DNA from: Pocillopora verrucosa
Lineage: Eukaryota > Cnidaria > Anthozoa > Scleractinia > Pocilloporidae
Direction of reading: 5' to 3'
Assembly (NCBI RefSeq): GCF_036669915.1
Contig: NC_089319.1
Location: 16,740,012 to 16,804,011, forward strand
DNA length: 64,000 nt
Below, in pieces: positions 46,179 through 57,752 of the stretch; position 1 is the stretch's first letter; each line of letters begins with the position of its first letter. A model generated the notes under the pieces. It searched no databases. It was not told the origin of the DNA and saw only the letters and a list, made by a program, of their open reading frames with translations. The translations under genes were made by a program, and so were the position numbers.

Positions 46179-48391
46179 ATGAAGTCATCAGAACACAGAT
46201 TTCAAACGCTATTCGAGCCATTCCGTATCAAATCAGTTGAGAAGATACAACGTACCACAAGAGCTCAGCGGGTTCAGCGTCTAGAAGAGGCGAATTTCAA
46301 TCCCTTCATGTTGAACTCTGAAGACATCATTATCGATCTGTTGACAGATTCTGGTACGGGCGCCATGAGCTCCGACCAGTGGGCCGCTATCATGAAGGGT
46401 GACGAGTCTTACGCGGGCTCACCAAGCTACCGGAATTTTGAAGCAGTGGTGAAAGAAATCTTTGGCTTCCGACACGTGATCCCTACGCACCAGGGCCGCG
46501 CTGCCGAGAGGATCTTATTCCAGTGTAGTCTCAAAGAGGGGGATGTCGTTCCAAACAACGCGCACTTTGATACAACTCAGGCCAACGTAGAAAAACGGGG
46601 AGCCAAAGCGATGAATTTGCCAGTTTCCGAAGCCTTGGATCCAGAGGTAAGTATTCCATTCGGTGGCGATATGGACATCAACAAACTGATAGAATTGCTG
46701 TCGAGTGGAATAAAAGATAAGGTTACATTGGTGATGACAACCGTAACTAACAATGCCACTGGTGGAATGCCCGTCAGTATGGAGAACATAAGAATGGTTT
46801 CCAAGATTTGCCGCTCTCGAGGAATCCCCTTCTTTCTTGACGCGTGCCGTTTTGCGGAAAATGCTTGGTTCATCAAAATGTTTGAGAAAGGGTATGCACA
46901 TCGCTCGCCGCTTCAAATTGCACGCGAGATGTTTTCGCACGCCGATGGCTGTACCATGTCTGCCAAGAAAGATGGCCTCGTAAATATTGGAGGATTTCTA
47001 GCCATGAATGATGAGCAACTCGCTGACAAATGCCGCCGCGAGTTGATCATATCTGAGGGGTTTGTCACCTATGGCGGGTTGGCCGGAAGAGATCTCGAGG
47101 CGATGGCCGTTGGATTACGTGAGGGCCTAGAGGAAGACTATCTTCAATATCGAGTTGGATTTGTCAAAATGCTGGCAGATTTGCTGAGGGAATATCACAT
47201 CCCTGTGTTAACCCCACCAGGTGGACATGCGGTCTACATCGACGCAGCAGCTATGTTGCCGCATATCCCCAGAGATCAATTCCCAGCTTGGGCTTTGAGC
47301 TGCGCATTATATGTTGAAGGTAAAATAACATTAGCTAATGACACATAAATTATTATTAGATGGAGAGCGGTGGCGCCTAAGTGCTTTACTTGCAAGAACA
47401 CTAGAATGAATCTAGTGCTGTTTTTTTTTTTTTAAAGATTAAGTTGCTTCAAAAGATAGCACAAATACAGAACAAAACTACTCAAAGTCGCAAATCTTGC
47501 TCGAGATATACTGTCGTGTCGGAGCGTTTTTCGATTAAACTCGAATGAACACCAAAGGAGAACATAAGTTAATACTGAAAATTGCCAGTGAGACTTTGAA
47601 GTAAAAGAAAAAGTTCAAACTGCCTGAGGTGCGGTAAAACGGGAGAGACGAATTTGAAGTTACTCCTGAAACGAGAGCCATTTGTCGAAATGTCGAAGGT
47701 AACCCGGGATTTCAATGGTTTCCTTTACTTTGTGTTGTGATTGGTTCGGAACCCGCGCCACACTCTCAGCCAGATGTTCAAACCACAAAAGACATGAAGG
47801 AGAAAGTCAGCAAATATTGATTGCGTTGTATTTGAAAGGAAGCCATTATTGATATATGTATTTTTCAGGTGGTATTCGTTGCGGTGAGCTGGGCGGTGTA
47901 ATGCTCGGTGGAGATGATATAAGCTTGGAGAACGGTCTCGAACAAGAAGATGAAAAGAAGGAACTTCTTCGCCTTGCAATTCCACGCAGGACATATACTG
48001 AGTCACACATGAAGTACGTATTTTCTACCCTATAGGTGAGGGGGGGACCTTTTAATTTTTCGGCTATTATCATTTTAATTATTATCATTTTTGTTGTTAC
48101 TATAATTATTACTTTATTGGCAGAGAAAATTTCGGGCAATCAACGCAGTCTTTTTAGCCCTCTAAACATACTATCAAACAAACATAGTTCTCACAAATCA
48201 TATAATCATGGTAAATTTACTGTAGGTATACCGCTGAAGTATTGGAGTACGTTAGCAGACACAAAAACGAAGTCAGCGGTTATAGAATCACGTGGGCTCC
48301 TGCTGTATTACGTCATTTCAGTGCTCATCTCGAACCCATTTTCCCGCCAAACCAGGAACACGAGAACGGCATTGGAAACGAGGGAAGATAA
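46179..48391 (+). CDS. Tryptophanase-family PLP lyase, copy 1 (three exons, 483 aa)
   Basis: Exons 46179-47319, 47869-48013, 48226-48391; GT-AG, phases 1 and 2, 1452 nt. The family cleaves tryptophan or tyrosine by beta-elimination to pyruvate, ammonia and indole or phenol. Seen: EPFRIKSVE, IDLLTDSGTGAMS, GDESYAGS, PTHQGRAAE (cofactor phosphate), TNNATGG, FLDACRFAENAW (cofactor Asp and Arg), TMSAKKDG with the expected Schiff-base Lys264, YGGLAGRDLEAMAVGL, PHIPRDQFPAWAL, RLAIPRRTYTESHM and VLRHFSAHLEP. Asp131 (HFDTT) and the His of LRHF match tryptophanase (E. coli Asp137, His463); the tyrosine phenol-lyase Arg of the MERG segment is replaced by GELGG. Length is near the bacterial 471 aa. An acidic insert (DDISLENGLEQEDEKKE) precedes LLRLAIPRR. 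AATAAA at 48577-48582. Bacterial-type family, probably transferred. Confidence 0.9.
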
Positions 48392-55564: not shown

Positions 55565-57752
55565 TTAACTAAACTGCATTGATGAATTTTTTCGTCTCCT
55601 CAACACTTGACCACTGGATACCTTTACGGCTGACGGACGGCGCACTTTATCTGTTTCCTCAGAAGCCTCTGACGGCGGTGGAATGGGTTCCAGATGAGCG
55701 GTGAAATGACGCAACCAGGGTGGTTCCCACGCAATGGTATAGCCGCAAACCTTAGAGCGGTTCCTGTAAATATGGGCGCAGACCTCTGCAACATATCTGT
55801 AAAGAGGATTTATACAATTATTGGTACATGCTAGTTAGTAGGAATCCCCCTTGAAAAGCCTAAAAAGGGAACAAGGAAATTTTGAATTCTTCCATCCTTT
55901 TCCTTGGTGGGCAGAATTAGGATTTCAAGAGACGTTTAGTTGAGGAAAGCATAATAACATTAAGGTTAAATGCTTTGAAAGTCGACATCAGAGCATCCTT
56001 TCACGATTTTCTCGCGGCAGTTACCCTCATCCAATCAGATACGAAACTTTTCAAACGCCTACGCCTTTGTGAACAGCACGTGTCAGACTCGCGCTTGATC
56101 ACTTGACATAAGGAATGGATAGGAATGTGCCACGTGACACATTTGGTCGGTGGGAGAGTTTAACAGGGTAATTTAGTATTATCAAATGAGTTGATAACGT
56201 AAATTAGCCACCACAAAGGCATTTAAAGCTAGCGTTTCGAGCGTTAGCCATTCGACAGAGCGAAGGGCGAAGCTACGCTCCGATGAAGGGCTAACGCTCG
56301 AAACGTCAGCTTAAAAACTCTTTATGGTGGCTAATTTACGTTATCAACTCAGTTTATAATACTAAATTACCACACTATAAGAATTAATGTTACACTTTAT
56401 AAGTGAAGGGCTCACCTGATATGAGACTCAGTGTAGGTGCGGCGAGGAATGGCCAGACGGAACAGCTCTTCATGCTCCTCCACTTCAGTTTCAAAAACCT
56501 CATCATCTTCTTCATCAGTGTTTACTTCATCCTCTGTATTCTCACTCACTGCGGAAGACTCCTTGCCATTTTTGGCCGTTCCCAGCATCACCCCGCCAAC
56601 TTCAGCCCCTCGGATACCTCCCTCGACATAAAGGGCGCACCCGAGGGCCCACGCGGGAAATTGTTCCCTGGGGATGTGAGGCAGCATTGCACCTGCGTCG
56701 ATATACACCGCGTGACCTCCTGGGGGCGTGACAATCGGAACATGGTTCTCTACGAGTAAGTCCCCCAAAAACTTCACGAAGCCAACTTGATAACGCAAGT
56801 AGTCCTCTTCTAAGACCTCGTTTAATCCCACGGCAATTGCTTCGAGATCGCGACCGGCGAGTCCACCGTACGTCGTAAACCCTTCGGTTATCAAGAGCTC
56901 TTTGCGGCATTGTGCGGCGAGTTCCGAGTCGTTCATTGCCAAAAATCCCCCAATGTTTGCGAGGCCGTCTTTCTTTGCGGACATAGTGCAACCATCGCCG
57001 TATGAGAAGATTTCATGCGCGATTTCTTTGGGTGTGCGATTGGCATAGCCTTCTTCTTTGATCTTGATGAACCAAGCGTTCTCAGCGAAACGACAGGCAT
57101 CGAAGAACAGCGGAATACCATGAGCTCGACATAGTTTTGAGACCGCCTTGATATTCTCCATGCTAACAGGCTCACCTCCAACCATGTTATTGGTTATGGT
57201 GATCATAACAAGTGGGATTCTGGCCTTACTCTTAGCGACCTTTTCTTCTAGCATTCCTATATTCATGTTACCCTTAAATGGCATATCTGTACTCGGCTCC
57301 ATAGCTTCGGGTGTCAAAAAATTGATCGCGTGCCCCCCCTGCGCTTCGATGTTGGCCAAAGTAGTCGCAAAGTGTGCGTTGTTAGGAACGATATCTCCTT
57401 CCTTTATTGTGCACCGGAAGAGAATGCGCTCAGCAGCGCGCCCTTGATGCGTGGGGATCACGTGACGATAGCCAAAGATCTCCTTGACGACCTTTTCAAA
57501 CTTTATGTAACTCGGGGAGCCTGCGTACGACTCGTCTCCAAGCATTACCGCTGCCCACTGTTCAGAACTCATCGCCCCAGTCCCTGAATCGGTCAGCAGG
57601 TCAATCATGATGTTCTCCGAGTCCAAGAGATACAAATTGTAGTTGGCTTGTTTCAGATGCTTGATTCGTTCGTCTCGCGTTGTTTGCTTGAGTTTCTCAA
57701 CAGATTTGATTTTGAAAGGCTCGAAGAACGTCGAAAACTTGTGCTCTTGCAT
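55565..57752 (-). CDS. Tryptophanase-family PLP lyase, copy 3 (two exons, 522 aa)
   Basis: Exon 1 56416-57752 and exon 2 55565-55796; phase 2, GT-AG, 1569 nt. The first intron of copies 1 and 2 is absent: YVEGGIRGAEVGGVMLG is continuous. Cofactor residues are kept (THQGRAAE, DACRFAENAW, SAKKDG), and so are the Tyr of ESYAGS and the His of LRHFTAHLEP. The tryptophanase Asp is not: HFDTTQ is HFATTL, with Ala129. This suggests a changed substrate or lower tryptophan activity; inference only. The acidic insert is longest here, with about 20 Asp/Glu in EDEVNTDEEDDEVFETEVEE. The C terminus is basic (LRRRKNSS). Diverged well from copies 1 and 2. The intron holds a 205-bp palindromic element close to the donor. 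Confidence 0.9.
56167..56371. repeat. 205-bp palindromic element inside the copy 3 intron
   Basis: Starts GGTAATTTAGTATTATCAAA and, reversed from its end, GGTAATTTAGTATTATAAAC; arms of about 95 bp, each with the GGGC/TAAC/GCTC core in opposite orientation. It is a head-to-head pair of the dispersed hammerhead-like repeat. It lies 44 bp from the splice donor. Confidence 0.85.

Follow-up and report, generated by a model that had tools for sequence, protein, structure and literature searches.

What are three tryptophanase-family genes doing on a coral chromosome, and do they all make the same enzyme? A 64,000-nucleotide (nt) stretch of the Pocillopora verrucosa genome (hereafter the window; C8:16740012-16804011) contains three such genes, intact and spliced: T1 at 46179-48391 (+ strand), T2 at 51783-54080 (+) and T3 at 57752-55565 (-). 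In work on animal hosts, indole usually counts as a signal from bacteria. Should T1 or T2 be active, the animal itself is a possible source of it, and holobiont experiments read differently. We consider it likely, from sequence comparison, that T1 and T2 are tryptophan indole-lyases (TILs), that T3 is not an efficient tryptophanase, its residue pattern fitting another beta-lyase, and that the three are a host family derived from one bacterial-type gene duplicated in place. T3 can serve as a natural test of whether the loss of one aspartate makes a tryptophanase into another lyase that is kept by selection.

Joining the exons at the junctions put forward in an earlier, sequence-only reading of this DNA (47319/47869, 48013/48226, 52923/53604, 53751/53849 and 56416/55796) yields open reading frames whose protein products can be aligned, with 483 (T1), 506 (T2) and 522 (T3) amino acids (aa). 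Each contains all five conserved blocks that the reading had listed (SAKKD, LTDSGTGAMS, THQGRAAE, RLAIPRRTYT and LRHF) and each carries a C-terminal tail; T3 has an acidic insert as well. Identity over aligned residues is 82.6% for T1-T2, 68.8% for T2-T3 and 66.2% for T1-T3. All five coding introns are of the GT-AG type except intron 1 of T2, which is GC-AG. The position of the last intron, to the codon, is common to all three genes; T3 lacks the first. Besides the GC-AG intron, features new to the present analysis are the missing intron 1, the acidic insert and an alanine for a pocket aspartate, all in T3. On the 5′ side, similarity between T1 and T2 starts at a matching AG, 12 nt upstream of each ATG, which suggests that the two share an intron in the 5′ untranslated region (UTR); in T3 an AG lies 24 nt upstream of the ATG. 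Exons upstream of these putative acceptors were not located for T1-T3. T2 has an AATAAA or ATTAAA about 100 nt 3′ of its coding end. The T3 intron houses, at 56167-56371, an inverted repeat of 99 bases resembling a miniature inverted-repeat transposable element (arms 86% complementary, loop of 7 bases).

Pseudogenes were rejected, as all frames are open and the ratio of nonsynonymous to synonymous divergence between T1 and T2 is 0.171 (dN 0.106, dS 0.618), which shows purifying selection between these two. Between T2 and T3 synonymous sites are saturated (proportion of synonymous differences, pS, 0.834; nonsynonymous, pN, 0.218). Synonymous divergence is far lower over the first 120 codons of T1 and T2 (46179-46538 versus 51783-52142; pS 0.15-0.21) than over the other seven blocks (0.33-0.75), and for this reason gene conversion there is probable.

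Membership among the tryptophanase/tyrosine phenol-lyase (TPL)-type lyases, as first proposed, is borne out by family models. These were scored on the first exons, which encode 380, 379 and 445 of the aa of T1, T2 and T3. Pfam PF01212 (beta-eliminating lyase) gave 228.1, 232 and 231.6 bits (gathering cut-off 27; E values 1.8e-67 to 1.2e-68), and the NCBIfam tryptophanase subfamily PRK13238 (NF009709) gave 558.8, 567.1 and 594.3 bits against a curated cut-off of 285; scores so far past the cut-offs exclude a chance match. An AlphaFold2 model of the 445-aa exon-1 protein of T3 (22 alignment rows; predicted local distance difference test 78.3, predicted template-modelling score 0.80) has low confidence at residues 1-13, 56-58 and 387-426, the last stretch covering the acidic insert. 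The predicted fold is close to those of TPLs (template-modelling score, TM, 0.87, the best) and of the tryptophan indole-lyases (TnaA, EC 4.1.99.1) of Proteus vulgaris (1AX4, TM 0.85) and Escherichia coli (2C44, TM 0.82), with 43% and 39% sequence identity to the latter two. A PF01212 search of the 353 Mb host genome gave eight matches: T1-T3 and five pieces at C8:5.15 Mb (VIDLRSDTVTKP, HMDGARLFNAA), which we take to be a threonine aldolase. It revealed no tryptophanase-family gene besides T1-T3.

Active-site residues were read from an alignment of T1-T3 with 79 bacterial relatives, three near-full rows from the viral collection and ten named reference rows. The bacterial rows are drawn from the best 80 of at least 540 relatives found among 591 candidate stretches of genome contigs, and all counts over 79 rows below have this scope; one of the 80 (L055) and an incomplete viral locus (L084) do not enter the residue and identity counts or either tree. 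TPL residues bear the names that we presume to be customary, positioned via the Pantoea TPL row. TIL residues are named after the P. vulgaris enzyme (PMC11301627). Equivalents of TIL Tyr72, Arg101, Phe132, Asn194, Asp223, Arg226, Lys266, Arg414, His458 and Phe459 are found in all three proteins. The lysine that binds pyridoxal phosphate (PLP; Lys266) is thus kept, together with the cofactor and carboxylate residues (among them carboxylate-binding Arg414) and His458, which lies in LRHF and is His in 79/79 bacterial relatives.

T3 departs at Asp133, the acceptor of the indole NH. This is Asp in T1 (GAT) and T2 (GAC), in 79/79 bacterial relatives, 3/3 viral-collection rows and seven of the ten named rows; the other three (Pantoea TPL, Fusobacterium and Rhodobacter) have Thr and carry TPL Arg381 and Phe448. 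T3 has Ala (GCG), alone among the aligned rows. At TPL position 36 T3 has Tyr and all 79 bacteria have Phe. In P. vulgaris TIL, according to the text of PMC11301627, the D133A change abolishes tryptophan activity (none detectable) and spares activity on S-ethyl-cysteine, and H458A leaves 1.6% of the turnover number (kcat) with L-tryptophan. Because of the Asp133/His458 pattern, read by extension from the mutants of that other enzyme, T1 and T2 are probably tryptophanases and T3 probably is not; T3 may be a C-S lyase. The earlier suggestion that the animal could release indole therefore fits the residues of T1 and T2, and is not supported for T3, where Ala stands at the position whose Asp the P. 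vulgaris enzyme requires for tryptophan.

The proposed mechanism starts from one ancestral bacterial-type gene, which would have become a small host family by duplication in place. In T1 and T2, which would depend on PLP, an aldimine with L-tryptophan would form at the active-site lysine; the Asp (TIL Asp133) would bind the indole NH and, together with the His (TIL His458), close the site, and beta-elimination would then yield indole, pyruvate and ammonia. T3 would retain the PLP machinery, with Ala for Asp133, Tyr for TPL Phe36 and Ala at the TPL Met379 site, and would act on a different amino acid, for instance an S-substituted cysteine. We infer in this way the expression and catalytic activity of T1-T3 and the substrate of T3. 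A further step is more speculative, and we rate it as possible but doubtful: the coral would have an indole economy of its own in which labour is divided. T1 and T2 would make indole from tryptophan beside the kynurenine route, and T3, the natural counterpart of D133A, would be selected as a different lyase, e.g. a C-S lyase on S-alkyl-cysteines. On contig C14 the host genome has five pieces of tryptophan 2,3-dioxygenase, of which two score above the family cut-off, and so the kynurenine route probably runs alongside tryptophanase.

Table 1. Mapped features of T1-T3 and of the right flank (window positions)
Feature	Positions	Strand	Remarks
T1 putative 3′ splice site (AG 46165-46166) and 12 nt of 5′ UTR	46165..46178	+	inferred; aligns with T2 51769-51782
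T1 coding exon 1	46179..47319	+	380 aa; PLP lysine in SAKKD; Asp = residue 131
T1 coding exon 2	47869..48013	+	after 549-nt GT-AG intron
T1 coding exon 3	48226..48391	+	LRHF (His458 equivalent) and stop; T1 total 483 aa
T2 putative 3′ splice site and 12 nt of 5′ UTR	51769..51782	+	inferred
T2 coding exon 1	51783..52923	+	Asp = residue 131
T2 coding exon 2	53604..53751	+	after 680-nt GC-AG intron
T2 coding exon 3	53849..54080	+	LRHF and stop; T2 total 506 aa
T3 putative 3′ splice site and 24 nt of 5′ UTR	57753..57778	-	inferred
T3 coding exon 1	56416..57752	-	without intron 1; acidic insert within residues 392-430; Ala = residue 129
T3 codon GCG (Ala), equivalent of P. vulgaris Asp133	57366..57368	-	
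T3 coding exon 2	55565..55796	-	LRHF and stop; after 619-nt GT-AG intron; T3 total 522 aa
Open frame with SH3 exon of PACSIN/syndapin gene (flank control)	61325..61663	-	

Several observations weigh against our account of the three genes. Scores for the TnaA and TPL equivalog models, computed on exon fragments, lie below the cut-offs; TIGR02617 and NF053783 gave 412-425 and 478-515 bits, on first exons only, against 825.8 and 750. The best PDB matches, both by sequence and by fold (Foldseek), are TPLs, ahead of tryptophanases. The substrate range of T1 and T2 may itself be shifted, given that the TPL Met379 and Pro289 sites, both close to the active site, are non-consensus. The quick tree described below flagged long branches meeting at T1-T3 and at one bacterial row (L056). 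In favour of the account counts a Nematostella gene, v1g204932, that bears the annotation 'Tryptophanase'. The text of PMC5015328 puts it among the genes differing most between oral and aboral regeneration. In Table 1 of that paper its activity is higher on the oral side, where the change peaks at hour 24 with a log value of 4.08 (adjusted p 2.68E-13).

The origin of the genes was approached through their relatives. Phyla represented among the best 80 relatives are Chloroflexota, Acidobacteriota, Verrucomicrobiota, Gemmatimonadota, Actinomycetota, Myxococcota and others. T1, T2 and T3 are each 54-61% identical over the full length to the 79 bacterial proteins (highest value 0.611), and they join this bacterial subfamily, in line with the bacterial-type affinity first claimed for them. 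This environmental PRK13238/NF009709 subfamily (Acidobacteriota, Chloroflexota, Verrucomicrobiota and others; the model was scored on the window proteins only) holds the nearest relatives among the matches listed. The 79 bacterial genes are single open frames, unlike the spliced T1-T3, which also differ at the TPL Met379 and Pro289 sites and carry C-terminal tails, with the acidic insert in T3.

Two trees were made, a quick one of 95 rows and a careful one of 61 of these (34 were dropped: six long-branched named rows and 28 near-duplicates or extras). The outgroup consisted of two TPL-type rows, one from Pantoea, which is annotated as TPL, and one from Fusobacterium, a record that lacks annotation and has the TPL residues. 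T1-T3, which are the sole eukaryotic rows in both trees, form one clade (Shimodaira-Hasegawa-like approximate likelihood ratio test 100 in the quick tree; 100/100 in the careful tree), in agreement with the local duplication already proposed, and T1 pairs with T2 (99; 100/99). In the careful tree the clade has a stem of 0.60 changes per site. It belongs to neither of the two main groups of bacteria with support (13 rows, 95/97; 39 rows, 95/84) and sits at the base of the subfamily; since this base lacks resolution in either tree, we dropped the naming of a donor. Transfer is putative here, as are its direction and its age.

The earlier statement that animals generally lack tryptophanase holds for vertebrates and is otherwise too strong. 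The text of Boya et al. 2021 (PMC8537960) lists tnaA in the cnidarians Acropora digitifera, A. millepora, Stylophora, Exaiptasia, Actinia tenebrosa, Nematostella, Orbicella and Pocillopora damicornis (genus names expanded here from initials), and scattered elsewhere in animals: in two octopuses, a hemichordate, a horseshoe crab, a springtail, Drosophila and a priapulid. In that text, indole production is given as n/a for the animal entries, and their sparse presence is judged insufficient to reveal an origin. Tryptophanase in Anthozoa is thus already on record, and the headline of the sequence-only reading is less novel than it seemed. The genes listed there for Nematostella, Exaiptasia, Acropora, Stylophora, Pocillopora and Orbicella belong to the same family and the same animal group as T1-T3. 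Unlike the present analysis, the paper offers lists and trees and leaves the origin open, and neither a cluster nor an Asp133-less paralogue was found in its text. The T1-T3 cluster with its Asp133-less copy was likewise not found in the open-access literature searched, as far as the text goes, figures and supplements aside, and that literature yielded nothing joining tryptophanase, cnidaria and horizontal gene transfer. The more interesting part is the tryptophanase-type pair beside a natural D133A-type copy, with open frames, on a chromosome-scale contig.

The scatter of tnaA over cnidarians and the other animals just named (text of PMC8537960) also lends itself to another history, in which an early eukaryote or animal ancestor passed the gene on vertically and most lineages lost it, with no transfer into cnidarians. 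The long stem of the clade fits such an old origin. The animal distribution, however, is patchy and in part doubtful. The text of PMC4962025 reports tryptophanase in a mollusc transcriptome, where indole-making Vibrio was found too, and no tryptophanase match in three other molluscs, among them Octopus bimaculoides (in KEGG), which conflicts with the octopus rows of PMC8537960. T1-T3 are moreover intron-poor, having one or two coding introns, all in the last quarter, whereas the other PF01212 gene of the host matches in five separate pieces. We regard vertical descent as possible, though unlikely.

A narrower objection concerns T3 alone, which could still be a tryptophanase if another residue, e.g. 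the Tyr at TPL position 36, stood in for Asp133. It has kept His458, Lys266 and the rest of the fold, and the low pN of 0.218 between T2 and T3, at saturated pS, indicates that the path between them was constrained. Against this stand the Asp of 79/79 bacterial relatives and the P. vulgaris TIL in which, on the text of PMC11301627, D133A removes detectable tryptophan activity; we think this alternative rather improbable.

Less probable still is a shift of T1 and T2 towards bulkier substrates (halogenated or hydroxylated tryptophan, for instance) through the Gly that both have at the TPL Met379 site. The 79 bacteria have Val (69), Cys (7), Ala (2) or Ile (1) there, and T3 has Ala. The remaining pocket positions checked are tryptophanase-like, save the TPL Pro289 site, which is Val, Leu and Thr in T1, T2 and T3, and Pro in 77 of the 79 bacteria (Leu in one and Val in one).

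The reading of T1-T3 as TPLs (EC 4.1.99.2), releasing phenol from tyrosine, draws on the shared fold and PLP machinery and on the TPLs that head the PDB sequence and Foldseek matches. It was rejected, as very improbable, for want of three marker residues: TPL Thr124 is Asp, Asp and Ala in T1, T2 and T3, Arg381 is Leu, Leu and Val, and Phe448 is His in all. In the careful tree, a 100/100 branch also lies between the two outgroup rows of TPL type on one side and T1-T3 with the environmental rows on the other.

Bacterial contamination, or misassembly of a contig from an endosymbiont into the animal genome, has in its favour only the 54-61% identity to bacterial proteins and a coding guanine-plus-cytosine fraction of 0.48-0.50 in T1-T3 against 0.38 in the window, and it was rejected as scarcely credible in view of the host-type splice sites and introns in all three genes, the 23.8 Mb contig, the host neighbour, a window without any N and a top identity of 0.611 among the 79 bacterial rows, drawn from the best 80 of at least 540 relatives. 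The host genome comprises 353,415,432 bases in 52 contigs. The host neighbour is a PACSIN/syndapin gene, 3.6 kb beyond T3 on the right, whose F-BAR exon (in L104) has Syndapin as best PDB match (5.9e-76). Spliceosomal introns (predicted from sequence), host chromosome and host neighbours all mark T1-T3 as host nuclear genes, as the earlier reading had argued.

Neighbouring genes of the bacterial relatives were scanned for 20 of 31 flanking open reading frames, at 15 of 16 loci (13 of the 20 had a Pfam match at 1e-5; the neighbour of L055 is unreliable, the L055 gene having been wrongly delimited). No neighbour family recurred in this set, and operon context was dropped as a clue to function. 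On two actinomycete plasmids the tryptophanase has neighbours of tryptophan metabolism: in Streptomyces sp. CL7 (L088, 5010-6431) it adjoins a gene of the tryptophan dimethylallyltransferase family, and in Amycolatopsis sp. AA4 (L091, 1896-3377) it lies one gene from a tryptophan 2-C-methyltransferase. These loci are perhaps secondary-metabolite clusters. IMG/VR gave four loci, and in three of them (L081-L083) the tryptophanase relative is near-full. Around L081, the locus examined, lie bacterial metabolic genes (pyrophosphatase, dihydroorotate dehydrogenase and aspartate decarboxylase); the viral origin is doubtful with such surroundings, and viral carriage was dropped.

Elsewhere in the host assembly, contig C30 has three COX1 copies (L110-L112), spaced 17,407 and 17,411 bases. 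It looks like a tandemly assembled mitochondrial genome, with at least three copies of about 17.41 kb in one contig. The COX1 frame contains 13 in-frame TGA codons. It also has four AGA/AGG codons at positions that we take to be arginine, and six ATA codons at positions that we take to be isoleucine. Code table 4 is used by cnidarians, sponges and some fungi and protists, unlike bilaterian animals; the C30 COX1 reading supports this table and agrees with a cnidarian host.

Elsewhere in the window, three copies of a short cysteine-containing protein family, probably secreted, lie at 11331-11819 (+), 14816-15433 (+) and 19177-19722 (-); for two of them a Pfam search at 0.01 gave no match. An array at 16626-18648 has 253 copies of the 8-base unit CTGTATCT with 99% matches, and is open in several frames on both strands. 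A LINE-type (long interspersed nuclear element) sequence with endonuclease and reverse transcriptase domains occupies 26239-28822 (+), with CAGCTATACA-type tandem repeats on its flanks. Two arrays at 34292-35411 have units of about 195 bases, whose consensus sequences look, by eye, like reverse complements of one another.

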